This document shows, one piece after another, positions 7,881 to 60,182 of a stretch of 60,182 nt of DNA. The stretch comes from Alphaproteobacteria bacterium (lineage in GTDB: Bacteria > Pseudomonadota > Alphaproteobacteria > Rhodobacterales > Rhodobacteraceae). Position numbers and translations under genes: made by a program. Every line of letters begins with the position of its first letter. The stretch's first letter is position 1. Location: NCBI GenBank assembly GCA_029289325.1, contig JARFTV010000026.1, positions 1-60,182 on the forward strand, in the 5' to 3' direction. Under the pieces are notes generated by a model. The model was not told the origin of the DNA and did not search any database. It saw only the letters and a list, made by a program, of their open reading frames with translations.

Positions 7881-8963
7881 ATGTTCTACTGGCTGGCCGA
7901 TTTCTCCGATGGCGGCGGCATCCTAAACCTGTTTCGCTACATCACGGTCCGCGCCGGCGGTGCCTTCGTCACCGCGCTGGTCTTCGGCTTCCTCTTCGGC
8001 CGCCCGCTGATCGACCTTCTGCGGCGGAAACAGGGTAAGGGTCAGCCGATCCGCGACGACGGGCCGCAATCGCATCTGTCGAAAGCGGGAACGCCGACGA
8101 TGGGAGGGCTCCTGATCCTCTCGGCGCTGATGGTCTCGACGCTGCTCTGGGCGCGGCTGGACAATCCCTTTGTCTGGATCGTGATCCTGGTGACCCTGGC
8201 CTTCGGACTGATCGGCTTTGCCGACGACTTCGCCAAGGTCACGAAGCAGAACACCAGAGGCGTTTCGGGCAAGCTGCGCATGGGTCTTGGCCTGCTGATC
8301 GCGGCGCTGGCAAGCTTTGCGGCCGCGATGTTCCATCCGGCGGATCTGACGAACCAGCTTGCCTTTCCGTTCTTCAAGGATGCGCTCCTGAACCTTGGCG
8401 TCTTCTTCGTGCCCTTCGGGATGATCGTAATCGTCGGGGCTGCCAATGCCGTGAACCTGACCGACGGCCTCGATGGCCTGGCAATCATGCCGGTGATGAT
8501 CGCGGGCGGGACCCTTGGGATAATCGCCTATGCAGTGGGCCGGGTCGACTTCACCAACTATCTTGACGTCCACTATGTCCCCGGCACCTCGGAACTTCTG
8601 GTCTTCGCGGCCGCGCTTTTCGGCGGCGGGCTAGGCTTCCTGTGGTACAACGCCCCCCCGGCGGCGGTGTTCATGGGGGACACCGGCTCGCTTGCTCTGG
8701 GCGGCGCCCTGGGCGCGATTGCGGTCTGCACCAAGCACGAGATCGTGCTTGCGATCGTCGGCGGCCTCTTCGTCGTCGAGGCCCTGTCGGTGATCATCCA
8801 GGTCCTGTACTACAAGCGCACCCGGAAGCGCATTTTCCTGATGGCGCCGATCCACCACCATTTCGAGAAGAAGGGCTGGGCCGAGCCTCAGATCGTGATC
8901 AGGTTCTGGATCATCAGCCTGATCCTGGCGATGATCGGCCTCGCCACGCTGAAAGTCAGGTAA
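7881..8963 (+). CDS. mraY: Phospho-N-acetylmuramoyl-pentapeptide transferase
   Basis: MraY transfers phospho-MurNAc-pentapeptide to undecaprenyl phosphate, making lipid I in the inner membrane. The 360-residue protein is hydrophobic throughout, with about ten membrane helices. It shows the conserved Asp pair in GFADDFAKV (about residues 113-121), the NLTDGLDG loop near 192-199 and the HHHFEKKGW motif near 324-332, all part of the Mg2+/nucleotide site. The ATG follows the murF stop with no gap. A 28-bp palindrome lies five bases after its stop. Confidence 0.97.
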
Positions 8964-8967
8964 ATTG

Positions 8968-8995
8968 GTAGGGTGGGCGATATCGCCCACCCTAC
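8968..8995. repeat. REP-like palindrome, copy 1
   Basis: This is a perfect 28-bp palindrome with left arm GTAGGGTGGGCGAT and its exact complement to the right. A nearly identical palindrome occurs at 24280-24307 and a degenerate one at 40214-40238, so it is a dispersed intergenic element. Transcribed, it would form a tight hairpin directly after mraY and could attenuate or stabilise the 3' end of that message. Confidence 0.85.
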
Positions 8996-9052
8996 GCTTG
9001 TCCCGGGCGGTGCAGCGACTCGTGCGGGGCATCGCGCCTTCCCTTGAAGCAA

Positions 9053-9071
9053 TGTTTCCCAAAAAGAAACA
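9053..9071. promoter_or_regulatory. Dyad upstream of LysM-SBP gene
   Basis: TGTTTC (9053-9058) and GAAACA (9066-9071) form an inverted repeat around the A-rich 7-base centre CCAAAAA, about 100 bases before the LysM-SBP start. It has the shape of a repressor or activator operator. No regulator can be assigned. Confidence 0.3.
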
Positions 9072-9170
9072 CGCGCCCTGATTTCCTTGTTTCTGCCACA
9101 AGTCCGCAGAAGTATCGGCCCATTTCCCGCCATTCTTCTGCCTCAAGAAATCGAATTCAGGGAGATAACC

Positions 9171-10256
9171 ATGCCGATCCTCACCCCCCGGGTGGCCTTG
9201 TCCGCCCTCGCGCTCCTCGCCGCGCTGCCTGCCGCCGCGCAGGATGCCTGTACCACCTACACGGTCAAGGCGGGCGACACGCTCGGCAACATCGCCTTCG
9301 CCGCCTATGGCTCCTACAACTACCAGATGATCTTCAACGCCAACCGTGATGCGCTGGCAGGTAATTTCAACAATCTCCCCGCCGGGCTCCAGCTGATCCT
9401 GCCCTGCGAGGACGGCCGCCTTACCGCCGACAGCCAGCTTTCTGGCGTCATCGCCGCCGAAACCGCCCGGCAGCAGGCGACCCGGTCCGCCGACCGGCCC
9501 TATGCGCCGGCGCTGAAATTCGTCACCTCGAATGACTGGAAGCCCTTCACCGACCAAAGCCTGCCCGGCGGCGGCATCTATGTGCAGATGGCCGCCACCG
9601 CGATGCAGCGCGGCGGCAACGACCGCGACTACAAGATTTCTTATGTCGACGACTGGGGCTCGCATATCGAGACGCTGCTGCCGAGCAATGCCTTCGACAT
9701 GTCGATCGCCTGGTCGCGGCCCGACTGTTCGCGCATCGACCTTCTGGGCGAGTTCGCGGTCAAGATGTGCACCGAGTTCGAGTTCTCGCTGCCGATCTAC
9801 GAGGTGGCCTATTCCTACCACACGCTGAACGACAGTGCTTATGCCAACGCCCGCAGTTTCAGCGAATATACCGGGGCGCGGATCTGTCGACCCGAGGGCT
9901 GGCCGACCTCCGACCTTGAGGTCGAAGGTCTCTCCGCCCCGGCCGTGACCTTCGTCCAGCCGAAAAGCCCGATGGACTGCGCCAGACTGCTGCTCGCTGG
10001 CGAAGTCGATCTTTATTCCATCGAGATCGAGACTTCGACCGCGAACTTCGAGTCACTGGGCGCGACCGACAAGGTCTATCTGAACCCCGCACTGGCCACC
10101 TTCAACACGCATCACCTCGTGGTCTCGAAGCGCAATCCGCGTGCGGCCGAATACATGACCATGGTCAACCGCGGCATCGCAGAGATGCGCGAGACCGGGG
10201 AATGGTATGACGTGGTCGCCACCGGCCTTGCCGCCTGGAACAAGTCGCAGGAGTAG
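9171..10256 (+). CDS. Secreted LysM + SBP_bac_3 fusion protein (paralogue 1)
   Basis: The product is predicted to be periplasmic: a signal peptide (about 1-23, cleavage after an AAA-type site) is followed by a LysM module (about 27-79) beginning YTVKAGDTL, and then a family 3 solute-binding domain (about 108-355) ending GEWYDVV. LysM domains bind peptidoglycan, and SBP_bac_3 domains bind amino acids or small peptides. Six cysteines conserved in its two paralogues suggest three disulphides. The ATG has an AGGGAG ribosome site; the longer frame upstream lacks a signal sequence. It lies between mraY and murD, where no transporter gene is present. A role in binding wall fragments is inference only. 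Confidence 0.85.
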   Translation: MPILTPRVALSALALLAALPAAAQDACTTYTVKAGDTLGNIAFAAYGSYNYQMIFNANRDALAGNFNNLPAGLQLILPCEDGRLTADSQLSGVIAAETARQQATRSADRPYAPALKFVTSNDWKPFTDQSLPGGGIYVQMAATAMQRGGNDRDYKISYVDDWGSHIETLLPSNAFDMSIAWSRPDCSRIDLLGEFAVKMCTEFEFSLPIYEVAYSYHTLNDSAYANARSFSEYTGARICRPEGWPTSDLEVEGLSAPAVTFVQPKSPMDCARLLLAGEVDLYSIEIETSTANFESLGATDKVYLNPALATFNTHHLVVSKRNPRAAEYMTMVNRGIAEMRETGEWYDVVATGLAAWNKSQE

Positions 10257-10313
10257 CCTTTCCCTTTCCCGCTTCCTCCCCTATCCCTGTCCCCGTGCAA
10301 GAGGGGGGCAGGG

Positions 10314-11714
10314 ATGATCCCGGTGAAGGGTTACAAGGGCGCGAAGGTGGCGGTCCTCGGTCTTGGCCGGTCGGGCCTTGCCACGGCAGCCGCGCTGCGG
10401 GCGGGTGGGGCTGAGCCCCTCCTCTGGGACGACAGCCCCGAGGCGCGCCAGAAGGCCGAGGCGGAGGGTTTCATCCTCACTGACCTGACCCGCAACGCCG
10501 CGCTTGAGGGGGTGGCCTGCCTGGTGACCTCGCCCGGCATCCCGCATCTTTACCCTACGACGAACCCGATCATCGCCCGCGCGCTGGAACTGGGGATCCC
10601 GGTCGACAATGACATCGGCCTCTTCTTCCAAAGCGCCGCCGGCGGTGACTGGGCCGAGATGGAGACCCCGCCGAAGGTGGTCGCCGTCACCGGCTCGAAC
10701 GGCAAGTCCACGACGACCGCGTTGATCCACCATATTCTTGAGGTCGCCGGTCGCCCGACGCAGATGGCGGGCAATATCGGCAAGGGCGTCCTGTCCATCG
10801 ATCCGCCCCGGGACGGCGAGGTTGTGGTGCTGGAGCTCTCCTCCTACCAGACCGAATTGGCCCGCGCGCTGACCCCCGATGTGGCGGTCTTCACCAACCT
10901 TTCGCCCGACCATCTTGACCGGCACGCTGGGATGGGCGGCTATTTCGCCGCAAAGGCGCGGCTCTTCACGATGGGCGGCCCCGACCGCGCCGTGATCGGC
11001 GTGGATGAGCCCGAGGGCCGCTTCCTCGCCGGTCAATTGGCGCAAGGCCCGCAGGATGACCGGGTGATCCGCATGTCCTCGGGTCAGAAGCTGGAGGGCT
11101 TCGGCTGGTCGGTCTTCGCGCGCAAGGGGTTTCTCTCGGAATGGCGCAAGGGGCGGCAGGTCGCGAGCATCGACCTGCGTGAGGTCAAGGGCCTTCCCGG
11201 CGCGCATAACCACCAGAACGCCTGCGCCGCCTATGCGGCCTGCCGGGCACTCGGGATCGCGCCCAAGCTGATCGAGGGCGCGCTGCACAGCTTCGCCGGG
11301 CTTCCCCACCGCAGCCAGCTGGTGGGCGAGCGGGCCGGGGTACGCTTCATCAACGACTCGAAGGCCACCAATGTCGACAGCGCCGCCAAGGCCCTGCAGG
11401 CCTTCCCGAAGATCCGCTGGATTGCCGGGGGCTTGGGGAAGGAAGGGGGGATCGCCGGGCTGAAGCCGTTTCTCGGTCCGGTCGTGAAAGCCTACCTGAT
11501 CGGCCATTCGGCCCGCGACTTCGCCCTGCAACTTGGCGAGACCCCGCACGAGATCTGCGAGACGATGGACCGCGCCGTCACCCGCGCGGCGCAAGAGTCA
11601 GAACCGGGCGAGGTGGTGCTACTGGCCCCAGCCGCTGCCAGCTTCGACCAGTACCCCAACTTCGAGAGACGCGGCGAGGATTTCACCGCCCGCGTTCGCG
11701 CCCTGATCGGCTGA
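10314..11714 (+). CDS. murD: UDP-N-acetylmuramoylalanine:D-glutamate ligase
   Basis: MurD adds D-glutamate to UDP-MurNAc-L-Ala. The 466-residue protein has an N-terminal Rossmann domain ([10 protein letters not shown], residues 16-25), the ATP loop GSNGKST at about 127-133, the LSSYQTE block near 176-182 and the C-terminal NDSKATN motif near 345. The ATG at 10314 is preceded by a G-rich ribosome site (AGGGGGG). It is the last dcw gene in the window; the usual next genes (ftsW, murG, murC) are absent and the complex I operon follows instead. Confidence 0.96.
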
Positions 11715-11776
11715 TCCGCCCCCTTCATGCTGGGAAAAATTCGCGGGGAGTTCGACGGGCAACGCGCCCCCCCCCG

Positions 11777-12085
11777 TCAGCCGGGGAGGAGGCGCAGGCC
11801 CGACGAGAGGACGGACTTGCGCGGATGCGGTCCACCTGGCGAGGTCGTCATGCCGCTCCGCAGAGCGTCAGCATGAGCGTGCAGCCGGCCCCCCGTAGAG
11901 CCGGGCCCCCCGTAGAGAATGGGCGGGTCGACTGGCGCGACGCGGGGATGCCGGACGGGATCGGGCCGCAGCGCGCTCCAATTTGCGATTCGCGTGGCCA
12001 ATGCGTCCTGATCGATGCTGCAGCTGCCCGCCTTGACCGGGAGGTCGACCAGAAGGGCAGGCATGGCGGCGGGCGGGTCGAGCAT
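11777..12085 (-). CDS. Hypothetical 102-residue protein in the murD-nuoA gap
   Basis: The product is not recognised. The ATG at 12085 has a strong AAAGGAG site about 8 bases upstream, the best argument that it is translated. The protein is rich in Pro, Gly and Ala, and has no membrane segment or known motif. A longer version from 12139 would add a Cys-rich leader (CGAC, then CP). The rest of the 11715-12260 gap holds only a short tandem repeat of a CCCCCCGTAGAG unit near 11887-11918. It could be a real small gene, a decayed fragment left at the breakpoint after murD, or chance. Confidence 0.3.
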   Translation of the reverse strand: MLDPPAAMPALLVDLPVKAGSCSIDQDALATRIANWSALRPDPVRHPRVAPVDPPILYGGPGSTGGRLHAHADALRSGMTTSPGGPHPRKSVLSSGLRLLPG

Positions 12086-12260
12086 CGGGCAGGCTCCTTT
12101 CTCGCGGGGACAGGCCCCGCACTCTTTCTGCATCTGCATGGCCCCGATTTCCCCCGGCTTCGGTTGACCGCGCCGGGGGGGCAGAGTAAACGGGCACCGA
12201 GACGAAGCGGGCCGTCAGAGTCCGCCTGCTCGCATGTCGCCAGCATCAAGGAGCCCCCTC

Positions 12261-24279: not shown

Positions 24280-24307
24280 GTAGGGTGGGCAATATTGCCC
24301 ACCCTAC
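24280..24307. repeat. REP-like palindrome, copy 2, between nuoJ and nuoK
   Basis: This is a perfect 28-bp palindrome with left arm GTAGGGTGGGCAAT and the exact complement to the right. It differs from copy 1 only in the centre. It begins one base after the nuoJ stop codon and lies inside the nuo operon message, where it would form a 14-bp stem that could act as an RNase barrier or processing signal. Confidence 0.85.
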
Positions 24308-47053: not shown

Positions 47054-47818
47054 ATGACGACAGACAGGCCAGAGGCAATACGGGTCGAGGATCTTCACAA
47101 GAGCTTTGGCGCCCATGAGGTGCTTAAAGGGGTATCGCTGACGGCGCGCGAAGGCGATGTGGTGGCGATCATCGGCGGTTCGGGCTCGGGCAAGTCCACC
47201 ATGCTGCGCTGCATCAATTTCCTCGAAACGCCCAGTTCCGGCCGGATCATCGTGGCCGGGGAGCCCGTGGCGATGCGGGCGGATGGCACCCCCGCCGACC
47301 GCCGCCAGATCGAGAGGATCCGCCAGTCGCTGGGGATGGTCTTCCAGAGCTTCAACCTCTGGACCCACCGGACGGTGCTGGAGAACCTGATCGAGGTGCC
47401 GGTCCATGTGCTGAAACTGCCGAAGGACCAAGCCATCGCCCGGGCCCGCAGCCTCCTCGCCCGCGTGGGCCTGGCCGAGAAGGAGGGGGCCTATCCGGCC
47501 TTCATGTCCGGCGGCCAGCAACAGCGCGCGGCCATCGCCCGGGCGCTGTGCATGGAACCAAGGGCCATGCTCTTCGACGAGCCGACCTCGGCGCTGGACC
47601 CCGAGCTTGTGGGCGAGGTCCTCCAGGTGATCCGCGGCCTCGCCGACGAAGGCCGCACGATGATCCTCGTGACGCATGAGATGAAGTTCGCCCGCGAGGT
47701 CGCGGACCATGTCATATACCTCCACAACGGCCGGATCGAAGAGGAGGGCCCGCCCGACCAGCTGTTCGGCGCGCCGAAATCCGACCGGCTGAAACAGTTT
47801 CTGAAATCCGTCGCCTGA
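47054..47818 (+). CDS. Polar amino acid ABC transporter, ATP-binding protein
   Basis: The 254-residue ATPase has Walker A GGSGSGKST (41-49), the FQSFNLWTHRTVLEN Q-loop segment typical of HisP/GlnQ-type importers, MSGGQQQRAAIARAL, Walker B with LFDEPTSALDPE, and LVTHEMKFAREV. It begins a four-gene operon for uptake of a polar, probably cationic, amino acid. A G-rich ribosome site precedes the ATG. TTGCAT at 47008-47013 and TCATAT at 47031-47036, 17 bases apart, are a weak promoter candidate. Confidence 0.93.
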   Translation: MTTDRPEAIRVEDLHKSFGAHEVLKGVSLTAREGDVVAIIGGSGSGKSTMLRCINFLETPSSGRIIVAGEPVAMRADGTPADRRQIERIRQSLGMVFQSFNLWTHRTVLENLIEVPVHVLKLPKDQAIARARSLLARVGLAEKEGAYPAFMSGGQQQRAAIARALCMEPRAMLFDEPTSALDPELVGEVLQVIRGLADEGRTMILVTHEMKFAREVADHVIYLHNGRIEEEGPPDQLFGAPKSDRLKQFLKSVA

Positions 47819-47845
47819 ACGGCGGAGCAACAACAGGAGAGACCC

Positions 47846-48613
47846 ATGAAACTTCGTTCCCTCGCCGCCGCGCTGATGCTGATGGCCGCCCCCGTCGCTG
47901 CGCAAGAGGTCAAGATCGGGATCGCGGCCGAACCCTATCCCCCCTTCACCAGCCCCGACGCCGCCGGCAACTGGGTCGGCTGGGAGGTGGACATCATCAA
48001 CGCCGTCTGCGCCGCGGCCGAGCTGCAATGCGTGATCACTCCGGTTGCCTGGGACGGGATCATCCCGGCACTGACCGCCGGCCAGATCGACGCGATCATG
48101 AACTCGATGTCGATCACCGAAGAGCGGCTCAAGACGATCGACTTCTCCGACAAGTACTACAATACCCCGACCGTGGTCGCGGTCGCCAAGGGCTCGGGCA
48201 TCCAGCCCACGGCCGAGGGGCTGGCGGGCAAGGTCATCGGGGTCCAGGTGGCCACGATCCATGAGGCCTATGTGAACAAGCACTTCGCGGACAGCGCGGC
48301 CGAGATCAAGGTCTACCAGACACAGGACGAGGCGAACCAGGACCTCGCCGCCGGCCGGATCGACGCGACCCAGGCCGACAGCATCGCGCTGGAGGACTTC
48401 ATCGCCTCGGACACCGGCGCGGCCTGCTGCGAGATCGCGGGCGCCGTGGCGGATGACCCGGAGGTGCTGGGCCTTGGCGTCGGCGCGGGCCTGCGCAAGG
48501 GCGAGGACGAGCTGAAGGCCAAGATCAACGCCGGTATCGCCAAGATCCGCGAGGACGGGACCTACGACGAGATCACCGCCAAATACTTCGCCTCGTCGAT
48601 CTACGGCGAATGA
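47846..48613 (+). CDS. Polar amino acid ABC transporter, substrate-binding protein
   Basis: The 255-residue product has a signal peptide (about 1-19) and a single SBP_bac_3 domain: IGIAAEPYPPFTSPDAAG, WEVDIINAVC, LTAGQIDAIMNSMSITEERL and DFSDKYYNTP. The YPPF and SMSITEER elements are typical of lysine/arginine/ornithine/histidine-binding proteins. A ribosome site (AGGAGAG) precedes the ATG. Unlike the three LysM-SBP proteins of this window it has no LysM and sits beside its permeases. Confidence 0.92.
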   Translation: MKLRSLAAALMLMAAPVAAQEVKIGIAAEPYPPFTSPDAAGNWVGWEVDIINAVCAAAELQCVITPVAWDGIIPALTAGQIDAIMNSMSITEERLKTIDFSDKYYNTPTVVAVAKGSGIQPTAEGLAGKVIGVQVATIHEAYVNKHFADSAAEIKVYQTQDEANQDLAAGRIDATQADSIALEDFIASDTGAACCEIAGAVADDPEVLGLGVGAGLRKGEDELKAKINAGIAKIREDGTYDEITAKYFASSIYGE

Positions 48614-48797
48614 TCGCTGGCCGTAACCCGGCCCCTGGCGGCCCGGCCTCCTTGTGGGTCGGGACGCCTTTCATATTGAGCGGCTTGCGCCGCACGCCTT
48701 TTGTCTCGCCTCTGCTCGCCAGGGGCGCGCAACCGGCTCGGGGGGTCGCCTCCGGCGGGGATATTTGGGAAGGGAAAATGTTCGGGGTGGGGCGGGC
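48614..48797. repeat. Intergenic spacer with GC-rich repeat-like element
   Basis: This 184-base gap splits the transporter operon between the binding protein and the first permease. It holds no gene. Near its end the string CGCCTCCGGCGGGGATATTTGGG (split: CGCCTCCGGCG at 48750-48760, GGGATATTTGGG after it) has the look of a dispersed element common in Rhodobacterales intergenic DNA, and resembles an inverted form near 30662-30682. A short hairpin CGCC-TCCG-GCG is possible. Confidence 0.4.
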
Positions 48798-49532
48798 TTG
48801 CTGAGTGGTGCGCTGTTGTCGTCGACGCTGGACCTCCTGGCGCTGAACCCGCCCGGCTGGGGGGCAGTGCTGCTTTGGGGGCTCTGGAATTCGGTGCTGA
48901 TCGCCGCCGGAGCCTTCGCACTGGGTCTGGTGATCGGGACACTTGGCGCCTATGGCAAGCTGTACGGCGGCCCGGTCACGAAGGACCTCCTGGCGGTCTA
49001 CACCACCGTGGTCCGGGCGGTGCCCGAGCTGATCCTGATCCTGATCCTTTATTTCGCCGTCACTGATGCGATGAACCAGGGTCTTGTCGCGCTGGGCCGT
49101 GAGAAGGTGCAGATTTCCGGCCTGGTCGCGGGGATCCTTGTCCTTGGCGTCGTTCAGGGCGCCTATGCGACCGAGGTCCTGCGCGGCGCGATCCTTGCGG
49201 TTCCCTCCGGCCAGATCGAGGCCGCCCGGGCCATGGGCATGTCGCCCCTCCTGCTCGCACGGCGGGTGACGCTGCCCCTGATGCTGGCGCTGGCGCTGCC
49301 GGGGCTGGCCAACCTCTGGCTCATCGCGACCAAGGATACGGCGCTTCTCGCCGTCGTGGGCTTTGCCGAGCTGACCCAGTCCACCCGACAGGCGGCCTCG
49401 ACCACCAAGGCCTTCTTCACCTTCTACGCCGCCGCCGGCGTGCTGTATCTTGGCGTATCCATCCTCTCGACCCTGGCCTTCGCCTGGGTGGAGCGACGGG
49501 CCCGGCGGGGGCAAAGGCCGGTGTCAGGATGA
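48798..49532 (+). CDS. Polar amino acid ABC transporter, permease 1
   Basis: The 244-residue membrane protein belongs to the HisQ/HisM family: VRAVPELILILILYF is the conserved early segment, and the EAA loop reads QIEAARAMGMSP, where the ATPase docks. About five helices are seen. There is no ATG near the expected N terminus; TTG at 48798 is the best in-frame choice, with a G-rich stretch ahead, while the longer frame runs back into the spacer and has no membrane character. The stop overlaps the ATG of permease 2. Confidence 0.85.
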   Translation: MLSGALLSSTLDLLALNPPGWGAVLLWGLWNSVLIAAGAFALGLVIGTLGAYGKLYGGPVTKDLLAVYTTVVRAVPELILILILYFAVTDAMNQGLVALGREKVQISGLVAGILVLGVVQGAYATEVLRGAILAVPSGQIEAARAMGMSPLLLARRVTLPLMLALALPGLANLWLIATKDTALLAVVGFAELTQSTRQAASTTKAFFTFYAAAGVLYLGVSILSTLAFAWVERRARRGQRPVSG

Positions 49533-50308
49533 TCCGCGCGCTTCTGATCCCGCGCCGGCTGGTGATGCTGGCGATCCTGATGGTCATCGTCGCGCTGGTG
49601 GCGATCTATGGCCGCTGGGACTGGCTGGGCAATCCGAAATACCAGGCGCTGATCGTCCGGGGGATCGGCAACACGCTGATCCTGCTGGTCCTCACCATGG
49701 CGATCGGCATGGCGCTGGCGATCCCCCTCGGCCTCGCCCAGGCGGTGGGGCCCTGGTATCTGGCCTATCCCGCCCGGGCCTTCTGCTCGGTGATCCGGGG
49801 CACGCCGCTGCTGCTTCAGCTCTTCCTTCTGTATTACGGGATCGGCAGCCTTTTCCCCGGAATTCCCGGCATCCGGGACAGCTGGGCCTGGCCCTATCTG
49901 CGCGACGCCTGGTATTACGCGGTCCTCGGCCTGTCGCTTTCCGTCGCGGGCTATGAGGGTGAGGTGATGCGCGGGGCCTTCCGCGCGGTGCCGCATGGCC
50001 AGCTTGAGGCCGCACGGGCGATGGGGATGCCGCGTCTCACCATCTTCCGCCGGATCTGGCTGCCGCAGGCGCTGCACCGCGTCCTGCCGACGCTTGGCGG
50101 TGAAACCGTGCTGCAACTGAAGGCCACGCCGCTGGTGGCGATGATTACCGTCGTCGACATCTACGCCGTGGCCAGCCGCGTCCGGTCCGAGACGCTGATC
50201 ACCTACGAACCGCTGATGCTGCTTGCGGTCGTCTACATGGCGATCACGGGTGTGATCGTGCTGATCTTCCGCTGGTTCGAGAACCGGGTGCCGCAGCGCG
50301 TGGCCTAG
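49529..50308 (+). CDS. Polar amino acid ABC transporter, permease 2
   Basis: The 259-residue protein is the second HisM-like permease. IRGTPLLLQLFLLYYGIG near 87-104 and the docking loop QLEAARAMGMPRLTIFRRI near 155-173 are diagnostic. It starts at an ATG overlapping the permease 1 stop. Its last four bases overlap the end of the convergent YiiX-like gene. With the ATPase and binding protein it completes the importer. Confidence 0.92.
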   Translation: MIRALLIPRRLVMLAILMVIVALVAIYGRWDWLGNPKYQALIVRGIGNTLILLVLTMAIGMALAIPLGLAQAVGPWYLAYPARAFCSVIRGTPLLLQLFLLYYGIGSLFPGIPGIRDSWAWPYLRDAWYYAVLGLSLSVAGYEGEVMRGAFRAVPHGQLEAARAMGMPRLTIFRRIWLPQALHRVLPTLGGETVLQLKATPLVAMITVVDIYAVASRVRSETLITYEPLMLLAVVYMAITGVIVLIFRWFENRVPQRVA

Positions 50309-52836: not shown

Positions 52837-54663
52837 TCAATTCAACAGCCACTGGGCCTTGACGCCCGCTTCATAGCCCTTGCGGGCCTTGTTCACTTCT
52901 TCCCGGTCCGAAACCTCGGGGACGGCCACATCCCACCAGTGTCCGCCCGCGCCGGTGCCGGGGGCCGGATCGGTGTCGATCACGATCACGGTCGGGATCG
53001 TCGCCGTCTTGGCCTTCTGCATCTCGGCCTCCAGCTCGGCGATGCTTGCAGCCTTCACCGCATTTGCCCCCATCGCGCGGGCATGGGCGACGAAATCCAG
53101 GTCAGCCTCGTTCACGTGATAGCTGTCGCGCAAGAGGTTGTTGAACGGCGCGCCGCCAGTGGCCTGTTGCAGCCGGTTGATGCAGCCATAGCCGCGGTTG
53201 TCGGTCAGGACGACGGTGAAGGGGATGCCCATCATCACGGCAGTCGCGAGTTCCGAGTTCGCCATCATGTAGCTGCCGTCGCCGACCATGCAGATCACGT
53301 CGCGCTGGGGCTGCGCCATCTTGATCCCCATGGCCCCTGCAATCTCATAGCCCATGCAGGAGAAGCCGTATTCCATGTGATAGCCGCCCTGCGCCGCGCG
53401 CCACAGGACATGGAGCGCGCCGGGCATGGTGCCGGCGGCGCACATGATGATCGACTGCTTCCCGGCATTGCGGTCCACCGCGCCGATCACCTGCGCGTCG
53501 GTCGGCAGTTCGTTGGTCCTGGGGGCGGCGAACAGGGCGTCGGTGGTCTGGAACCACTTGGTCCGCGCGCTGAAGTCCGGGTCTGCGAAGCGGTGCTGCC
53601 CCAGGGCGGCGCTGATCTTTTCCAAGGCCACTTTCGCATCCGAAACAAGCGGTTGCGCTGCGCGCTTATGGGCGTCGTAGCCGTGGATGTTGATCGAGAG
53701 GAGCTTGCGGTTCGGCGCGCTGAACACGGTCCAGGAGCCGGTGGTGAAGTCCTGGAAGCGGGTGCCGACGCCGATCACCAGATCGGCCTTTGCCGCCAGT
53801 TCGTTGCCGCAGCCGGTGCCGGTGACGCCGGGCGAGCCGAAGTGGAGCGGCTCCTCCCAATCCACCGCGCCTTTCCCGGCCTGGGTTTCCACGAGGGGGA
53901 TGTTGTGCGCCTTGGCGAAGTCGAGAAGCGTCTGCTCTGCGCCGGAGTAGAGGACGCCCCCGCCCGCGACGATCAGCGGGGTCTTTGCGGCCTTGATCGC
54001 CGCCACCGCGGCCTCAAGCTCGCGCTGGTCGGGTTCGGGGCGGCGAATGTGCCAGACACGCGGTTCGAAGAATTCGACCGGGTAGTCGTAGGCTTCCGCT
54101 TGCGTGTCCTGGCAGAAAGCAAGGCAGACCGGGCCGCAGTTCGCCGGGTCGGTCATGACGCGCAGCGCGCGGGGCAGGGCGGTCAGGATATGCTCGGGGC
54201 GGCTGATGCGGTCGAAGTAGCGGACCACGGGGCGGAAGCAGTCGTTGGCCGAAACGGTCGCGTCGTCGAAATCCTCGATCTGCTGCAGCACCGGGTCGGG
54301 GGCGCGGCTGGAAAACACGTCGCCGGGGATGAACAGGACCGGCAGGCGGTTGACATGTGCCAGCGCGGCGGCGGTGACCATGTTGGTTGCCCCCGGCCCG
54401 ATCGACGAGGTCACGGCCATCGCCTTCCGCCGCCCGTTCGCCTTGGCATAGGCGATGGCGGCATGGGCCATGGTCTGTTCGTTCTGCCCGCGCCAGGTTG
54501 GCAGGACGTCACGGTGGGCGTGCAGCGCCTCGCCGAGGCCCGCGACATTGCCGTGGCCGAAGATCGCCCAGACGCCCTCGATGAAGCGGGAGCCGTCCTC
54601 GGCCTGCTGGACCGAAAGCCAGCGGACAAGGGCCTGCGCGGCGGTGAGGCGGATGGTGGTCAT
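52837..54663 (-). CDS. iolD: 3D-(3,5/4)-trihydroxycyclohexane-1,2-dione acylhydrolase (TPP-dependent)
   Basis: IolD opens the ring of the diketo inositol intermediate using thiamine diphosphate. The 608-residue product has the TPP-enzyme N domain with the catalytic Glu region, the central domain, and the C domain with VGDGSYMMANSELATAVMMG, the GDG...N thiamine diphosphate/Mg2+ motif. The start is the ATG at 54663 overlapping the iolC stop; upstream in-frame sequence is antisense to iolC and is not used. Confidence 0.95.
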   Translation of the reverse strand: MTTIRLTAAQALVRWLSVQQAEDGSRFIEGVWAIFGHGNVAGLGEALHAHRDVLPTWRGQNEQTMAHAAIAYAKANGRRKAMAVTSSIGPGATNMVTAAALAHVNRLPVLFIPGDVFSSRAPDPVLQQIEDFDDATVSANDCFRPVVRYFDRISRPEHILTALPRALRVMTDPANCGPVCLAFCQDTQAEAYDYPVEFFEPRVWHIRRPEPDQRELEAAVAAIKAAKTPLIVAGGGVLYSGAEQTLLDFAKAHNIPLVETQAGKGAVDWEEPLHFGSPGVTGTGCGNELAAKADLVIGVGTRFQDFTTGSWTVFSAPNRKLLSINIHGYDAHKRAAQPLVSDAKVALEKISAALGQHRFADPDFSARTKWFQTTDALFAAPRTNELPTDAQVIGAVDRNAGKQSIIMCAAGTMPGALHVLWRAAQGGYHMEYGFSCMGYEIAGAMGIKMAQPQRDVICMVGDGSYMMANSELATAVMMGIPFTVVLTDNRGYGCINRLQQATGGAPFNNLLRDSYHVNEADLDFVAHARAMGANAVKAASIAELEAEMQKAKTATIPTVIVIDTDPAPGTGAGGHWWDVAVPEVSDREEVNKARKGYEAGVKAQWLLN

Positions 54664-56564
54664 GCTTTGGCTCCTTCGCGTGCCTTGTCCCACAGGGCGG
54701 CAAGGCGGGCATATCGGTCGGACATCTGCGCGATCGCCTCGGCATCGGTCATCTCGCCCTTCAGCCAGGCGCGGGCGGCCTCCCCAAAGATCGTGCGGCC
54801 GATGGCAAAGCCTTTCACAAGCGGCTGTTTCGCCGCAAGGGCCAGCGACGCGGCAAGCGCGGCTTCGCTGGCGTCGAGGCCGAGGACAACCACGCCGCGC
54901 GTGTGCGGGTCGTTCCGGGTGATCGCGGTGCAGGCGTTTTCCCAGGCGGCATCGGTGGTGAAGGGTTCCAGCTTCCACCAGTCGGGGTAGACGCCAAGAT
55001 CGTAGAACCGCTGGATGATCCGGGCAGAGGTGTCGTCGTCGGTCGGGCCGACCTTCGACGGGATGATCTCCAGCAGCATCTCAAGCCGGTTGCGGCGGCA
55101 GGCGTGGAACAGGCGGCGGACAGTGTCCTCCTGCTCGGCCCGCAGCGCCGGATCGTCATCGGGGTGGGTAAAGCACAGGACCTTGACCACATGCTCCAGC
55201 GGCCATTCCTGAAGGCCGCCGAAGTCGGGCCCCAACTCTGGCTCAAGGCTCAGGGGGCGTGAGCCCGGCCATTCGACGGGCCGCCCGATCCAGAGGCCGG
55301 TCCCGGCGGCCCGGAACAGTGCGTCGCGGCCGAGGCGGCTGTCGCAAAGGATGCCATAGCCGGGTTTGCCGCCTGCCACCCGCAGGGCGGCTTGGAGGCA
55401 AAGCTCCTTGAAGGCGCCGATCTTCGCGGGCGTCGCGCCCTCCATCTGCTCCAGCTGCATCCGGTGGTCGAAGGCGAAGACGCGCATCGTGGACCAGTCC
55501 TTGTGGCGGTTGGTCGCCCAATGGACCTGCTCCAGCGCCGGATCCTTGCGCAGCGCGGGGGTGACGACGCCGCGGTTCAGGAAGAACTGAAGCTCCTCCC
55601 ACGAGGGATAGGCCGGGGTGCAGCCATGGCGGGATACGGCGAAGGCGCCGCAGGCATTGGCGTATTTCAGCGCCACGGGCCAGGGTTCGCCATCAAGCCA
55701 ACCTTTCAGCAGCCCCGACATGAACCCGTCGCCCGCGCCGAGGACGTTGAACACCTCGATCGGGAAGCCGGGGCCGGTTTCGCCATCGTCGAGGGAGTCC
55801 GGGATCGCGCCGGTGAAGGCGACTGCGCCCATCGGGCCGCGCTTGCACACAAGGGTGGCGTTCGACACCTCCCGCACGGCACGCAGGGCGGCGATGGTGT
55901 CAGTGGTGCCACCGGCGATGTGGAACTCTTCCTCTGTACCGACGATGAGGTCGAAGTAATGCAGCGTAGATTGCAGCTTGGCGGTGACCTGCGCGGATTC
56001 GATGAACCGGCTTTCCCCGTCGCCGTGACCCGCAAGCCCCCAGAGGTTCGGGCGGTAGTCGATATCCAGCGCGGTCTGGAGCCCGTGCTTGCGCGCCAGG
56101 GTCAATGCCTTGAGGACGGCGGCCTCGGTCCGGGGGTGGCTGAGATGCGTACCGGTGGCGACGACCGACCGCGCCTCTGCGATGAAGGCTTCGTCGATGT
56201 CCTCCTCGCACAGCGCCATGTCGGCGCAGTTTTCCCGGTAGAAGATCAACGGGAATTGCTTGTCGTCGCGGATGCCGAGAAGGACGAGGGCGGTCAGCCG
56301 CTCGGGGTCGGTCTTGACGCCGCGCACGTCGACACCTTCGCGGGCCAGTTCCTCGCGGATGAAGCGGCCCATGTGTTCGTCGCCGACCCGGGTGATCAGG
56401 GCGGATTTCAGGCCCAGCCGCGCGGTCCCCGCCGCCATGTTGGTCGGCGAGCCGCCGATATACTTCTGGAACGACCCCATATCCTCAAGCCGTCCGCCGA
56501 TCTGCGCGCCGTAAAGGTCGACCGAAGACCGACCGATGGTAATGACATCAAGTGTGCGGGGCAT
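54660..56564 (-). CDS. iolC: 5-dehydro-2-deoxygluconokinase fused to DUF2090 domain
   Basis: IolC phosphorylates 5-dehydro-2-deoxygluconate. Residues 1-330 are a PfkB kinase, with the GGSPTNMA substrate region (37-44) and GAGDGF at 276-281 (catalytic Asp279). Residues about 340-634 form a DUF2090 domain, a TIM-barrel aldolase-like unit with AFDHRMQLEQM, WKLEPF and RGVVVLGLDA. Such fusions are often annotated as kinase plus 5-dehydro-2-deoxyphosphogluconate aldolase, which would combine the IolC and IolJ steps; the aldolase activity is not proven by sequence. It heads the iol operon and has a GGAA-N6-TTCC site just upstream. Confidence 0.94.
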   Translation of the reverse strand: MPRTLDVITIGRSSVDLYGAQIGGRLEDMGSFQKYIGGSPTNMAAGTARLGLKSALITRVGDEHMGRFIREELAREGVDVRGVKTDPERLTALVLLGIRDDKQFPLIFYRENCADMALCEEDIDEAFIAEARSVVATGTHLSHPRTEAAVLKALTLARKHGLQTALDIDYRPNLWGLAGHGDGESRFIESAQVTAKLQSTLHYFDLIVGTEEEFHIAGGTTDTIAALRAVREVSNATLVCKRGPMGAVAFTGAIPDSLDDGETGPGFPIEVFNVLGAGDGFMSGLLKGWLDGEPWPVALKYANACGAFAVSRHGCTPAYPSWEELQFFLNRGVVTPALRKDPALEQVHWATNRHKDWSTMRVFAFDHRMQLEQMEGATPAKIGAFKELCLQAALRVAGGKPGYGILCDSRLGRDALFRAAGTGLWIGRPVEWPGSRPLSLEPELGPDFGGLQEWPLEHVVKVLCFTHPDDDPALRAEQEDTVRRLFHACRRNRLEMLLEIIPSKVGPTDDDTSARIIQRFYDLGVYPDWWKLEPFTTDAAWENACTAITRNDPHTRGVVVLGLDASEAALAASLALAAKQPLVKGFAIGRTIFGEAARAWLKGEMTDAEAIAQMSDRYARLAALWDKAREGAKA

Positions 56565-56593
56565 GGAAAGGTCCTGACGAGTCGGATGGGTCG

Positions 56594-56609
56594 TGGAACG
56601 TTTATTCCA
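56594..56609. promoter_or_regulatory. Candidate IolR operator upstream of iolC
   Basis: TGGAACGTTTATTCCA is an inverted repeat TGGAA-N6-TTCCA, 30 bases before the iolC start. GGAA-N6-TTCC is the site reported for the RpiR-type repressor IolR of Sinorhizobium. A second copy precedes the RpiR-type gene here (57487-57502). The position suits repression of iolCDEB transcription. Confidence 0.75.
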
Positions 56610-56630
56610 TTTTTCCGAGTCGGGGAAGCA

Positions 56631-57449
56631 TCAAGTTTCACGCCGTGAGGCGACGGCAAGGGCTAGCGACAGGGCCAGGGCAATGGCCGCCGAAAGCGAG
56701 CGGAAAGCCCCGAAGTCGATCTCGGTCACCGTCAGGATTGTGTTCCCAAGGGGGGCAAGGGCGGTGGCGGGCGGGTCGGTGAGCACGACCACCGGCAGAC
56801 CCCGGTTGCGTGCCTCGCGGGCCAGGGCGTGCGTTTCCTCGGAATAGGGGGCGAAGGTGATGGCGAGCAAGGCATCGCCGTCCCGAAGGGTGGAACGCTG
56901 GCCTAGGCCGGCCACCCCGTCATGCAGCACGGTCGGAACCCCCAGCTTGTCGAAGACATAGGCCAGGTAAGACGCCACGGGGAACGAGCGTCGGAAACCC
57001 GCCAGATGGATGGTCCGCGCGGCAGACAGGGTGGAAACGGCTTGATTCAGGGCGGATTCGTCAAGATTCTGCGCCAAGGCTTCCATCGACTGGCGGCCCG
57101 CCTCGACAAACTCTGCGACAAGGGCGGCCGGCTGGTCCGCCCCCCCGGCCTTCAGATTGGCCAGCCGGGTGGCATAGTCCGGCGGAGCGGTGGAAAGCGC
57201 CTCGCGGAACAGCCGCTGCATTTCGGCATAACCGGAGAAGCCCAGAAGCTGGCAGAAGCGCATCACGGCCGAGGGCGGCACGCCGGCACCCTGGGCGATC
57301 TGCGCGACGGTGGACAGCGCAATCCTGTCGGTGTGGCGTGCCAGGTGGTCCGCGCATTGCTGCAGGCGCAGGGGCAGGTGGCCGCTAAGTGCCATGAGCC
57401 GGTTGCCGAATTCTTCGACCGATTGCGGGGGGCTGGGGGTATCGGGCAT
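56631..57449 (-). CDS. iolR: RpiR-family regulator, probable inositol repressor IolR
   Basis: The 272-residue protein has an N-terminal HTH_6 domain (about 10-85: TVAQIAQGAGVPPSAVMRFCQLLGFSGY) and a C-terminal SIS sugar-phosphate-binding domain (about 125-260: IHLAGFRRSFPVASYLAYVF, DALLAITFAPYSEET). It lies directly upstream of iolC on the same strand. Matching GGAA-N6-TTCC dyads precede both it and iolC, as expected for an autoregulated IolR. The ATG at 57449 is preferred; the longer frame would include the operator and terminator. Confidence 0.9.
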   Translation of the reverse strand: MPDTPSPPQSVEEFGNRLMALSGHLPLRLQQCADHLARHTDRIALSTVAQIAQGAGVPPSAVMRFCQLLGFSGYAEMQRLFREALSTAPPDYATRLANLKAGGADQPAALVAEFVEAGRQSMEALAQNLDESALNQAVSTLSAARTIHLAGFRRSFPVASYLAYVFDKLGVPTVLHDGVAGLGQRSTLRDGDALLAITFAPYSEETHALAREARNRGLPVVVLTDPPATALAPLGNTILTVTEIDFGAFRSLSAAIALALSLALAVASRRET

Positions 57450-57486
57450 CGGGGTCCTGCGCTGCTGCTTGGGCCAGCATAGCAGA

Positions 57487-57502
57487 TGGAACGGATGTTC
57501 CA
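57487..57502. promoter_or_regulatory. Candidate IolR operator upstream of the RpiR-type gene
   Basis: TGGAACGGATGTTCCA is an inverted repeat TGGAAC-N4-GTTCCA about 38 bases before the regulator start. It shares TGGAA-N6-TTCCA with the site at 56594-56609, supporting autoregulation by the RpiR-type protein. Confidence 0.75.
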
Positions 57503-57522
57503 ACAGAGGATTACGCAGCAAG

Positions 57523-57550
57523 AAGCCCCGCGCCTTTCGGCGCGGGGCTT
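57523..57550 (-). terminator. Intrinsic terminator after LysM-SBP paralogue 2
   Basis: AAGCCCCGCGCC (57523-57534) and GGCGCGGGGCTT (57539-57550) form a perfect 12-bp stem with a four-base loop (GAAA on the minus strand), followed on that strand by CTTCTTG. It begins 17 bases after the stop of the LysM-SBP gene and separates it from the RpiR-type gene. Confidence 0.85.
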
Positions 57551-57567
57551 GTGTCAATCCGTCAGGC

Positions 57568-58662
57568 TTACTGGCTGAGCTTGTTGTATTCGGCCAGGCC
57601 GGTGGCGACGATGTCGTACCATTCGCCGGATTCGCGCATCTCGGTGATGCCGCGGTTCAGCATGGCGATGTAGACGCGGCCGCGCGGATTGCTCTTCGAC
57701 GTGAGGAAGTGGTAGTTGATGAAGGTCGCCAGCGCCGGGTTCGGCAGCACGCGGTCCGTCGCGCCCAGTTCCTCGAAGTTGCGCGTCGCGGTCTCGGATT
57801 CGATCGAGTAGAGATCGACCTCACCGTTCAGCAGCATCTGGGCACATTCCTGCGGGCTTTTCGGGTGGACGTAGGTCACCACAGGCTCGACCAGACCCTG
57901 CACTTCCAGATCGCTGATCGGCCAGGCTTCGGGGCGGCAGATCCGGGCGCCGGCGTAATCGCCGAAGGCACGGGCGTTGGCATATTTGCTGTCCGCCAGC
58001 GTGTTGAAGGCATAGGCGGTTTCATAGATTGGCAGCGAGAAGTCGAATTCGGTGCACATCCGGATCGAGAACTCGCCGAGCAGGTCGAGCTTCGAGCAGT
58101 CCGGAGCTTCCCAGGCGATCGATACGTCGAAGGCACCCGAAGGCAGCAGGACGTCGATATGGGCCATCCAGTCATCGACATAGGAGACTTCGTAGCCACG
58201 GTCGTTGCCGCCGCGCTGCATGGCAGTGGTGGCCATGCGGGTGAAGATGCCGCCGCCCGAAAGGCTTTCGTCGGTGAAGGGTGCCCAGTCGTTCGAGGTC
58301 ACGAACTTCAGCGGCGGCTCATAGGTCTGGTTCCGCCGCGTATTCGTGGCCTGACGCGCGGTTTCCGCCGCGATCACCGCGTTGAGCTGGCTGTCTGCGG
58401 TCAGACGGCCGTCCTCGCAGGGCAGGATCAGTTGCAGACCCGGGGGCAGGTTGTTCGGGTTCGAGGCCAGCGCGTCGCGGTTGGCGTTGAAGATCATCTG
58501 GTAGTCATACGACCCATAAGCCGCCTGGGCGATCGTGCCGAGCGTGTCTCCGTCGCGCACGGTATAGGTGGTGCAGGCCTCTTGCGCCGCAACGACGCCG
58601 GGCACCGCCAGCATCATCGCCGCAAGAGTGATGGAACGGGTCTTGAGGGATGCACGATTCAT
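57568..58662 (-). CDS. Secreted LysM + SBP_bac_3 fusion protein (paralogue 2)
   Basis: The 364-residue product has a signal peptide (about 1-26, ending VVAAQE), a LysM module (about 30-82) starting YTVRDGDTL, and an SBP_bac_3 domain (about 112-360). It aligns end to end with the protein at 9171-10256, sharing blocks such as LKFVTSNDW, QRGGNDR, YVDDW, DLLGEF, SLPIYE, GARICRPE and NPALATF, and the same six cysteines. The ATG at 58662 has AAGAGGA about 10 bases ahead. It has its own terminator. No permease is adjacent. Binding of peptidoglycan and of an amino-acid-like ligand is inferred from the domains only. Confidence 0.87.
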   Translation of the reverse strand: MNRASLKTRSITLAAMMLAVPGVVAAQEACTTYTVRDGDTLGTIAQAAYGSYDYQMIFNANRDALASNPNNLPPGLQLILPCEDGRLTADSQLNAVIAAETARQATNTRRNQTYEPPLKFVTSNDWAPFTDESLSGGGIFTRMATTAMQRGGNDRGYEVSYVDDWMAHIDVLLPSGAFDVSIAWEAPDCSKLDLLGEFSIRMCTEFDFSLPIYETAYAFNTLADSKYANARAFGDYAGARICRPEAWPISDLEVQGLVEPVVTYVHPKSPQECAQMLLNGEVDLYSIESETATRNFEELGATDRVLPNPALATFINYHFLTSKSNPRGRVYIAMLNRGITEMRESGEWYDIVATGLAEYNKLSQ

Positions 58663-58885
58663 TTCGACTGGTCCTCTTGTCGGCATTGGCGGGTAATCTG
58701 ACGGTCACGATAGCGAAACAATGATCTCCACTTCCGTCAGAAAGCCGTGGTTAAGTGGCACGATTAAGGCAATTCGGTGGATTCACGGTCGCAAATCCTG
58801 CGGGCGTAAAGGGTTGATCGGGGAATACGGCGCAGGCCGTTGCCCACGGCGAAACACGGGGTCGATCTGGGGGAAACGGACCCGA

Positions 58886-60001
58886 TCACTGGCCGCGCAG
58901 GTCGCGGGAAAGGGCGCTCGAGACGATCTCGTACCACTCTCCGGAGTCGTACATCTCGATGATGCCCTCGTCGAACTTTGCCAACATGTCGACGGCCCGG
59001 AGGTTCGACTTGTGGGCGATGATATGCAGGCTGGTCAGCGTCGCCAAATGGGGGTTCTGCTCTACCTGCTTGACCGCGCCCAGCTGGGCGATCAGCGAAT
59101 CGCCCACCTCGGCGTCGATCGAGACCACGTCGACGCGGTCCGCCAGCAGCGCCTCGAAACAGTCGCTCGCCCGGTCGGGGCGAGTCAGCTGGATCTGGCC
59201 GGCGGAAAGGCCGTTCGCCTCAAGCACGCTGGTCGGATAACCCTCGGGCCGGCAGATCCGCTTGCCCAGAAGGTCGGTGTATTTGGTGGCCGCGATCAGC
59301 TCGTTGTCGCGCAGCGTGAAGAAGCCGTCGACGATTTCCACGAAGGGGGCGGAGAAGACGAAATTCTCGCAGCGGAAAAGGTCGCCGGCGGTCAGAGTTT
59401 CGGGCGCGTCGCAATTGGGGCGAAGCCAGGGATAGCTGAGATCGTAGGCCAGCGAAGGCAGGAGCGCATCAAGATGGGCCTGCCAGTCATTGATGAAGGT
59501 CAGGCTGTAGGGAATCGACGGGTCGGCGCGGAAGACGGCCATTTCCACCAGCTGCGTGAACATCCCGCCGCCGGGCAGGCCTTCGTCGACATAGGGCGCG
59601 AAGTTGTTGCCAGTGACGATCCGCACGGTGAGTTGCGGCGCCGGATCGTTGCCGGCGGGTTGGGTGGCAGCAGCCGGGGCCGCGGCCGGGGCAAGCTCGG
59701 CCGCGGCGGGTTCGGCGGCGGCGGTCTGAAGCTGCGTGTCGGACGGCGGGCTCTGGCCTTCTGCGCAGGGCAGGCGCAGTTCCATGCCGATCTCGATATG
59801 GTCGGCCTTGGCCCCGATCACCTGGATATTCGCCTCATAGATAAGGCGGTAGAGGTCGGGGTTGCCATAGGTGCTGCGGGCGATGAAGCGCAGGTTGTCC
59901 CCGGCCTTGACCAGATGGGTGCCGCAATCCTGCGCCAGGGCCGACCCGCCCATCAGCGTCAGCGCCGTGCATCCCAAGGCGAGCATCTTCGCGGTCTTCA
60001 T
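58886..60001 (-). CDS. Secreted LysM + SBP_bac_3 fusion protein (paralogue 3, divergent)
   Basis: The 371-residue product is a more distant member of the same family. A signal peptide (about 1-23, ALA before QDCG) is followed by a LysM-like module (about 27-78), an Ala/Pro-rich linker (about 85-115) absent from the other two, and an SBP_bac_3 domain (about 120-365) with LPGGGMFTQ, RICRPEGYPTS and GEWYEIV. The six cysteines are kept. The ATG at 60001 has AAGGAGA close upstream. It lies 223 bases upstream of paralogue 2 on the same strand, so the pair arose by duplication or acts together. Confidence 0.85.
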   Translation of the reverse strand: MKTAKMLALGCTALTLMGGSALAQDCGTHLVKAGDNLRFIARSTYGNPDLYRLIYEANIQVIGAKADHIEIGMELRLPCAEGQSPPSDTQLQTAAAEPAAAELAPAAAPAAATQPAGNDPAPQLTVRIVTGNNFAPYVDEGLPGGGMFTQLVEMAVFRADPSIPYSLTFINDWQAHLDALLPSLAYDLSYPWLRPNCDAPETLTAGDLFRCENFVFSAPFVEIVDGFFTLRDNELIAATKYTDLLGKRICRPEGYPTSVLEANGLSAGQIQLTRPDRASDCFEALLADRVDVVSIDAEVGDSLIAQLGAVKQVEQNPHLATLTSLHIIAHKSNLRAVDMLAKFDEGIIEMYDSGEWYEIVSSALSRDLRGQ

Positions 60002-60060
60002 GGCAGAGTCTTCTCCTTGCGGCGGTCGCATCCGGACGGTCGTTGGCAGGGTGATGGAAA

Positions 60061-60083
60061 GGATCGCGCGGTCAGCGCGATCC
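60061..60083 (-). terminator. Hairpin at the end of the right-edge gene
   Basis: GGATCGCGC (60061-60069) and GCGCGATCC (60075-60083) form a perfect 9-bp stem with a 5-base loop. On the minus strand it overlaps the stop codon of the partial gene and is followed by TTTCC, so it probably ends that transcript before paralogue 3. Confidence 0.6.
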
Positions 60084-60182
60084 GGTTTCGGGGGGGCGGG
60101 CCAGCCGAAGCAGCGCGCGGTCCAGAGCGGCGACAAGATCGTCAAGGTCCCCATTCGGCGGCAGATCCCCGGCACCAAGCGG
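60072..60182 (-). CDS. 3' end of an unidentified gene (partial)
   Basis: Reading from the right edge on the minus strand, 36 codons run to a TGA at 60074-60072. The residues (DLDDLVAALDRALLRLARPPE near the end, split here) look like a genuine amphipathic C-terminal helix. The frame and the hairpin overlapping its stop suggest a real gene whose main part lies beyond the window. The product cannot be named. Confidence 0.5.
   Translation of the reverse strand, partial: PLGAGDLPPNGDLDDLVAALDRALLRLARPPETGSR

Follow-up and report, generated by a model that had tools for sequence, protein, structure and literature searches.

SBP1, a secreted protein encoded between mraY and murD, is probably a relocated duplicate of its paralogue SBP2 and a member of a family of LysM-tethered receptors that would serve a Ser/Thr kinase pathway. 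The gene lies in the window, by which we mean the whole analyzed stretch of 60,182 nucleotides, from a Rhodobacteraceae genome to which Tabrizicola soli and T. aquatica are the closest named species. Because SBP1 appears to be a displaced copy of a family that sits beside a kinase elsewhere, a part in kinase sensing is likelier than a part in wall building. The preliminary description had proposed a wall-held periplasmic sensor working from within the lipid II operon. The general idea of such a sensor survives and is strengthened by paralogues linked to a Ser/Thr kinase, but a role tied to the lipid II operon is not upheld.

Domains and fold of SBP1

SBP1 occupies an open reading frame in the gap between mraY and murD, and the features that define it are as follows.

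7881-8963, + strand: mraY, the left edge of the variable slot
9171-10256, + strand: SBP1, secreted LysM plus family 3 SBP protein of 361 amino acids, an open reading frame in the mraY-murD gap
9258-9404, + strand: LysM domain of SBP1, residues 30-78, between C27 and C79 (Pfam and profile)
9513-10229, + strand: SBP domain (type II periplasmic binding) of SBP1, residues 115-353 (AF2 model, Foldseek and profile)
10314-11714, + strand: murD, the right edge of the variable slot

That a secreted protein with LysM and SBP_bac_3 domains is encoded between mraY and murD had been proposed from the sequence, and the reading frame, its position, the profile search and the fold all agree. A putative signal peptide, MPILTPRVALSALALLAALPAAAQD, was seen by eye as had been claimed, and no lipobox was seen by eye. 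When SBP1 was compared with Pfam as a single sequence, LysM fell just under its curated cut-off (E 0.0017; 18.7 bits against 20.9) and SBP_bac_3 scored 15.0 bits (E 0.021; cut-off 26.4). With a profile of 50 relatives searched against the PDB, both domains were recovered, LysM through Kbp (E 3.2e-13) and the SBP domain through those of GlnPQ (E 2.4e-12). Moreover, an AF2 model of SBP1 (pLDDT 69.1; pTM 0.53) had as its top PDB match by Foldseek the arginine-binding ArgBP structure 6svf (E 1.2e-13), with modest TM-scores of 0.34 by query and 0.47 by target, and other chains among the matches listed reached up to 0.71 by target. Also among the matches were 3h7m, a histidine kinase sensor domain, and the VFT2 domain of BvgS. 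SBP1 therefore has the type II periplasmic binding fold of family 3 SBPs by Foldseek and profile, and it has a LysM domain by profile.

The SBP1 family departs from its structural relatives in several ways. The fold is common to ArgBP, LAO, the GlnPQ substrate-binding domains and the histidine kinase sensor domains of 3h7m and BvgS, but the SBP1 family adds a LysM domain and invariant cysteines, and W181, which the profile register places near the pocket hinge, sets it apart from the amino-acid SBPs. C79 is kept in all 110 aligned relatives and C27 in 98 of them, and four cysteines of the SBP domain (C186, C200, C239 and C270), kept in 110 of 110, probably form disulfides. MltF is also a wall-associated protein with an SBP_bac_3 domain, but a Pfam scan of nine SBPs matched no lytic transglycosylase domain, and we rejected an MltF-like enzymatic reading on that ground. 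Pairwise dN/dS for SBP1 was 0.13-0.17 among three Tabrizicola genomes (G000, that of the window, G001 and G007), and thus SBP1 is under purifying selection. For comparison, dN/dS in the same three genomes was 0.12-0.20 for SBP2 and 0.08-0.14 for murD.

A variable site between mraY and murD

The mraY-murD junction in Tabrizicola is a variable site. An SBP1-type gene was present in 12 of 32 Tabrizicola genomes, some of them incomplete, and lay at the junction in 11 of 31, with G018 and G021 counted across contig breaks. The remaining copy, in genome G026, lies at the home locus of the family, between SBP3 and SBP2; G026 has no mraY match and was left out of the junction count. The other 20 genomes have mraY and murD on one contig with no SBP1-type gene between them. 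The distance from mraY to murD ranges from 76 bp to 6.5 kb in Tabrizicola and varies across the family too. Among the 29 Tabrizicola genomes with both genes on one contig, the gap was at most 300 bp in 5, 301-700 bp in 1 and more than 700 bp in 23, and SBP1 was found in 9 of these 23 long gaps and not in the other 14. Across the family, 139 genomes were drawn and 112 could be paired (the window's included), giving gaps of at most 300 bp in 63, 301-700 bp in 18 and more than 700 bp in 31, a few of which are inflated by partial matches. Besides LysM-SBPs, the 20 Tabrizicola gap regions that we read by eye hold open reading frames resembling a methyltransferase, a gamma-glutamylcyclotransferase, a VWA protein and an acyltransferase. 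Moreover, a second LysM-SBP lineage, which the tree separates from the SBP1 clade, occupies the slot in G010 and G015. As the slot varies and admits both other genes and a second LysM-SBP lineage, its position carries little functional meaning, and location there is not to be read as function. We therefore rejected a functional coupling of SBP1 to mraY or murD.

Between mraY and SBP1 lies one further feature.

8968-8995, strand not assigned: perfect palindrome of 28 bp between mraY and SBP1, the arms of which recur at 24280-24307

RNA folding of 8950-9010, which covers the palindrome, gave -31.1 kcal/mol (z -4.1), and a scan of 8900-10400 for sigma-70 promoters and terminators found nothing. 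With the palindrome following mraY, a single transcript with mraY is not evident. We note that another genome has the arms behind its own mraY match (L078, from G020) and that one arm was found in L062.

These observations bear on whether SBP1 is a sensor or capture protein for wall turnover that lies in the lipid II operon for a functional reason. The protein has the LysM and SBP domains that such a role would call for, selection maintains it, and 11 Tabrizicola genomes have it in the same position. The presence of the G010 and G015 lineage in the slot might also be taken to favor wall turnover, as the tree forces two gains or losses. The slot, however, accepts other genes, the home locus of the family is elsewhere, and the palindrome separates SBP1 from mraY. 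Moreover, the gene order is confined to Tabrizicola among the genomes compared: in one genome from each of 18 other genera (those with both mraY and an SBP-domain match among the matches listed), the SBP-domain match was, as judged by eye, more than 400 kb from mraY or on another contig in 18 of 18. A conserved order of mraY, LysM-SBP and murD across the order, which the preliminary description would have expected, was thus seen in 11 of 31 Tabrizicola genomes and 0 of 18 other genera, and homologues proved to be scattered without cell wall context. We consider it very unlikely that the wall operon accounts for SBP1, and the claim that a wall-turnover sensor was built into that operon falls with the variability of the slot, the other genes inserted there and the location of the family home.

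The region beyond murD differs as well. In the window, nuo genes come after murD (11714-12234), nuoA-E had no match in the examined stretches of the named relatives (L061-L069), and in G001 (L265) other open reading frames come after murD. Thus, the dcw cluster is broken after murD in different ways.

SBP2, SBP3 and the origin of SBP1

SBP2 and SBP3, two further family members of the genome, are encoded at the opposite end of the window from SBP1.

57568-58686, - strand: SBP2, a LysM-SBP paralogue with 70% identity to SBP1, located at the home locus
58886-60001, - strand: SBP3, a LysM-SBP paralogue with 39% identity to SBP1 (start codon assigned by eye)
54660-57557, - strand: iolC-like gene and rpiR-like regulator gene that come after SBP2 (named by reading the sequence)
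60002-60182, - strand: region upstream of SBP3 to the contig end (181 bp), the position of the kinase in relatives

In Tabrizicola, a gene for a Ser/Thr kinase with a membrane-like segment precedes the SBP3-SBP2 pair, and in most cases rpiR- and iolC-like genes come after the pair. The kinase was found in 15 of the 16 other home loci fetched (G001, G002, G004-G007, G010, G013, G020, G021, G026-G028, G030 and G031), and the remaining locus, G029, is cut by a contig end. These 15 comprise 10 of the 11 loci L182-L192, L066 (G026) and L070 (G013), plus G006, G021 and G030; at L066 the contig end leaves the C-terminus of the kinase. The window's contig, C79, ends within the corresponding region. 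Its genome has five strong kinase matches, the best of which stops 79 bp short of the end of contig C48 (89962 bases), and the other four lie elsewhere. There is no overlap between the contig ends of C48 and C79, so that adjacency of kinase and SBP3 in this genome is one that we infer, and the kinase at the end of C48 would fit as the missing neighbor of SBP3.

SBP1 appears to descend from the home locus. In a tree of 99 rows, the ten copies in the slot and the home copy of G026 form an SBP1 clade (support 100/100) that is sister to 24 SBP2 rows (support 99/98), 22 of which are encoded beside SBP3, the kinase or rpiR, with the rows of G029 and G030 at contig ends. As the branching at the base of the SBP1 clade is unresolved in that tree, duplication at home followed by a move is the simplest story rather than a proven one. 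SBP2 would have been duplicated at the home locus and one copy transferred to the mraY-murD slot, where selection would have retained it. A quick tree of 107 rows placed 42 of 44 kinase-linked SBPs, among which the window's SBP2 and SBP3 were rated kinase-linked by inference, in two clades. The SBP3-type clade was kinase-linked in 19 of 19 rows and the SBP2-type clade in 23 of 26, the other three being SBP1 and two orphan copies, L244 and L250. Two further kinase-linked rows, L162 and L163, fall among kinase-less relatives and so outside both clades, and a separate clade comprises 39 kinase-less rows. We also note a separate clade of LysM-SBP tandem pairs that lack a kinase in the stretch (L168, L169, L171-L173, L223-L228, L230-L232, L238, L240, L242, L256, L261 and L262).

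The ligand pocket divides the paralogues. In amino-acid SBPs, an Arg holds the ligand carboxylate and an Asp the ligand amino group, and two codons of SBP1 correspond to these places.

9765-9767, + strand: M199 codon of SBP1, the place of the ligand-carboxylate Arg (profile alignment, by eye)
10023-10025, + strand: E285 codon of SBP1, at the ligand-amino Asp position (register taken by eye from the conserved D280)

We take M199 to be the place of R77 in LAO, and E285 is presumably that of D161. With the register drawn from distant profile alignments over 110 aligned rows, the Arg position is Met in 11 of 11 SBP1 and 24 of 24 SBP2 rows and Arg in 25 of 25 SBP3 rows, and the Asp position is Glu in all 35 SBP1 and SBP2 rows and Asp in 25 of 25 SBP3 rows. 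Arg is kept in 23 of 39 other family members, and 11 distant members keep Arg and have Asn for Asp in 9. Thus, the pair that holds an amino acid in family 3 SBPs is present in SBP3 and absent from SBP1 and SBP2. The preliminary description, which a pocket lacking the residues for amino acid or peptide ligands would contradict, is thus contradicted in part, by SBP1 and SBP2 but not by SBP3. The SBP3-SBP2 pair looks like one canonical amino-acid receptor and one changed receptor, with SBP1 of the changed type.

Loss of the canonical residues in 35 of 35 SBP1 and SBP2 rows might instead mean that SBP1 binds no ligand and serves a structural or chaperone role, with the SBP fold only as a scaffold. 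The replacements, however, are themselves invariant, and 109 of 110 rows retain W181 and 105 retain R240, a pattern to be expected of a maintained site. A scaffold role seems quite unlikely. Alternatively, SBP1, SBP2 and SBP3 might be orphan amino-acid scavengers that serve ABC permeases encoded elsewhere. Their closest folds are amino-acid SBPs, SBP3 keeps the Arg/Asp pair, and an amino-acid ABC operon was recognized by eye in the window (47054-50308). ABC ATPase matches (25-38% identity) also lie some kilobases from many kinase-linked loci, and an ABC permease match lies near two kinase-less loci, L170 and L172. Unlike for periplasmic amino-acid SBPs, however, no cognate permease was found for the SBP1 family: the ABC operon has its own LAO-like SBP (47846-48613; E 7.2e-52), and the window's two permeases match none of the loci compared at E 1e-6. 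Moreover, a LysM tether and tandem pairs behind a kinase are ill suited to a free shuttle, and both SBP1 and SBP2 carry the Met and Glu replacements. Scavenging is unlikely, and we favor receptors of a kinase pathway.

The kinase-linked cassette

Linkage of LysM-SBPs to a kinase extends beyond Tabrizicola. The LysM-SBP family profile finds 50 of 196 genomes of the order, in 20 of 87 genera. We scanned 60 loci outside Tabrizicola, 59 of them distinct (one locus of G132 entered twice) and chosen from the matches rather than at random, and found a Ser/Thr kinase gene upstream on the same strand in 20, among which L155 and L163 have only the kinase ectodomain, at a contig edge. The 20 loci span 12 genera, and nine come from a single genus, g44. 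An FHA protein is encoded in 13 (five genera) and a PP2C phosphatase in 14 (six genera), and five of the 12 further genera with kinase-linked SBPs have both. The order STPK-FHA-PP2C-SBP-SBP(-SBP) recurs in 12 of the 20, where the genes are tightly packed, with -178 to +178 bp from each stop to the next stop-bounded open frame. By tblastn, 11 of the 20 have genes for dynamin-like GTPases upstream of the kinase (Dynamin_N, E 1.4e-10 in L252, 6.7e-10 in L249 and 1.2e-11 in L243), and nine of these 11 loci belong to g44. In G391, a single run comprises STPK, three SBP, FHA, PP2C and dynamin-like genes. Kinase loci L200, L243, L245, L247 and L254 have three or four tandem LysM-SBP genes, and thus the receptor set expands readily. 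In the window's genome, FHA and PP2C genes and matches to the dynamin-like proteins (26-48% identity) lie together on another contig (C118; L264, 6893-13990), apart from the kinase and the SBPs.

The cassette proteins resemble known signaling components at a distance. The kinase has a Pkinase domain (E 2.8e-32), after which 21 of 21 kinases have a hydrophobic window of 19 residues (mean hydropathy 1.99-2.77) and then 293-457 further residues. On hydropathy, the kinase is predicted to span the membrane and to have a C-terminal ectodomain, the AF2 model of which had a pLDDT of 32.6. Neither PASTA nor TPR domains were matched by Pfam in the three kinases scanned (L154, L070 and L252), and a PASTA kinase model matched at E 2.9e-43 with a score of 148.7 against a cut-off of 450. 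The PP2C phosphatase resembles Stp1 (E 1.3e-47, below the model cut-off). The FHA protein resembles FhaB (E 1.9e-9) and OdhI (E 1.6e-6), both below cut-offs, and a KTTFLG stretch precedes the FHA domain in 12 of 13 FHA proteins; that of the window's genome reads KTRVLGF in place of KTTFLGF. GarA and OdhI are FHA proteins and kinase substrates in the actinobacterial GlnH-GlnX-PknG system, which the weak match of the cassette FHA protein to the OdhI model brings to mind; in that system PknG is a soluble TPR kinase and GlnX a 4HB membrane protein.

How the pathway would work can be proposed from these parts. A kinase-linked set would consist of one SBP3-type and one or more SBP2-type receptors, encoded behind the membrane-segment Ser/Thr kinase and anchored on peptidoglycan by LysM. 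SBP3 would take an amino-acid-like ligand, and SBP2 and SBP1, with their altered pocket, would take another ligand or act as coreceptors. The kinase ectodomain, perhaps by contact with the SBPs, would read the ligand state and set phosphorylation of the FHA protein, for which the KTTFLG stretch may be relevant, and the PP2C phosphatase would reverse it. Dynamin-like GTPases would possibly provide an output at the membrane. Limits on the proposal are that SBP1 itself is beside the kinase in G026 only and that 40 of the 60 loci outside Tabrizicola have no kinase within the fetched stretch, to which L162 and L163, outside the two clades, may be added. When the neighbors of the 40 kinase-less loci were clustered, no common partner emerged that could be distinguished from antisense frames or synteny between close species. 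We note that at two such loci, L169 and L171, a protein with one strong hydrophobic stretch precedes the LysM-SBP pair and a large adhesin-like open reading frame lies nearby, as read by eye.

Among known systems, a close analogy is with GlnH-GlnX-PknG of actinobacteria, in which a Ser/Thr kinase is proposed to take its input from a solute-binding protein (PMC6069109). The LysM-SBP family may work in a similar way, as an analogue rather than an established member of that system, and coencoding of an SBP with a Ser/Thr kinase holds for SBP2 and SBP3 in relatives. In contrast to that system, the cassette kinase itself has the membrane-like segment, the receptors are tandem and LysM bearing, PP2C and dynamin-like GTPases are encoded nearby, and the family is alphaproteobacterial. 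Ser/Thr kinases fused to a solute-binding domain, such as gi 21223285 of Streptomyces coelicolor (PMC1262709), similarly tie SBP sensing to a kinase, but they do so in one polypeptide, whereas the cassette encodes separate proteins with LysM. The cassette also shares a membrane-segment Ser/Thr kinase, an Stp1-like PP2C and an FHA partner with the PASTA kinases (PknB/Stk1) but differs from them in the unmatched PASTA repeats, and the wall-binding part would act in trans as the LysM-SBP. Perhaps, then, tandem wall-anchored LysM-SBPs of the Rhodobacteraceae signal the presence of an amino acid or wall fragment to an FHA switch and dynamin-like GTPases by way of a transmembrane Ser/Thr kinase, as a Gram-negative, in-trans counterpart of the PASTA kinases in which SBP1 is a mobile extra receptor. 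We hold this fuller scheme tentatively, at somewhat less than an even chance. If it is true, a mobile extra receptor would widen the range of ligands. Because candidate receptors, kinase, FHA partner and phosphatase are encoded in a compact gene set, the question is directly testable in environmental bacteria.

The combination of a kinase and dynamin-like GTPases near the cassette might alternatively mark an island for anti-phage defense or envelope stress, with the SBPs as triggers. Consistent with defense, the L154 kinase matched PADLOC models PD-T4-6 (E 1.6e-46) and mad6 (E 3.3e-40). The NCBIfam MADS6 score, however, was 149.8 against a cut-off of 460, and the PASTA kinase model scored alike. 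Thus, the PADLOC matches may reflect general kinase similarity. Moreover, SBP1, the FHA protein and the PP2C had no PADLOC match at E 0.001, and we consider an island of this kind a highly improbable reading of the cassette.

No description of a LysM-SBP/kinase cassette or of Tabrizicola LysM proteins was found in the openly accessible literature, and Dshi_2138 is described as an abundant LysM protein of vesicles (PMC7901474). Finally, a gene for monomeric isocitrate dehydrogenase (Pfam IDH) lies beside the cassette in L252 (10083-12293), and six further loci from the genus of L252 have IDH-related open reading frames, an association of interest given the OdhI-like FHA protein.
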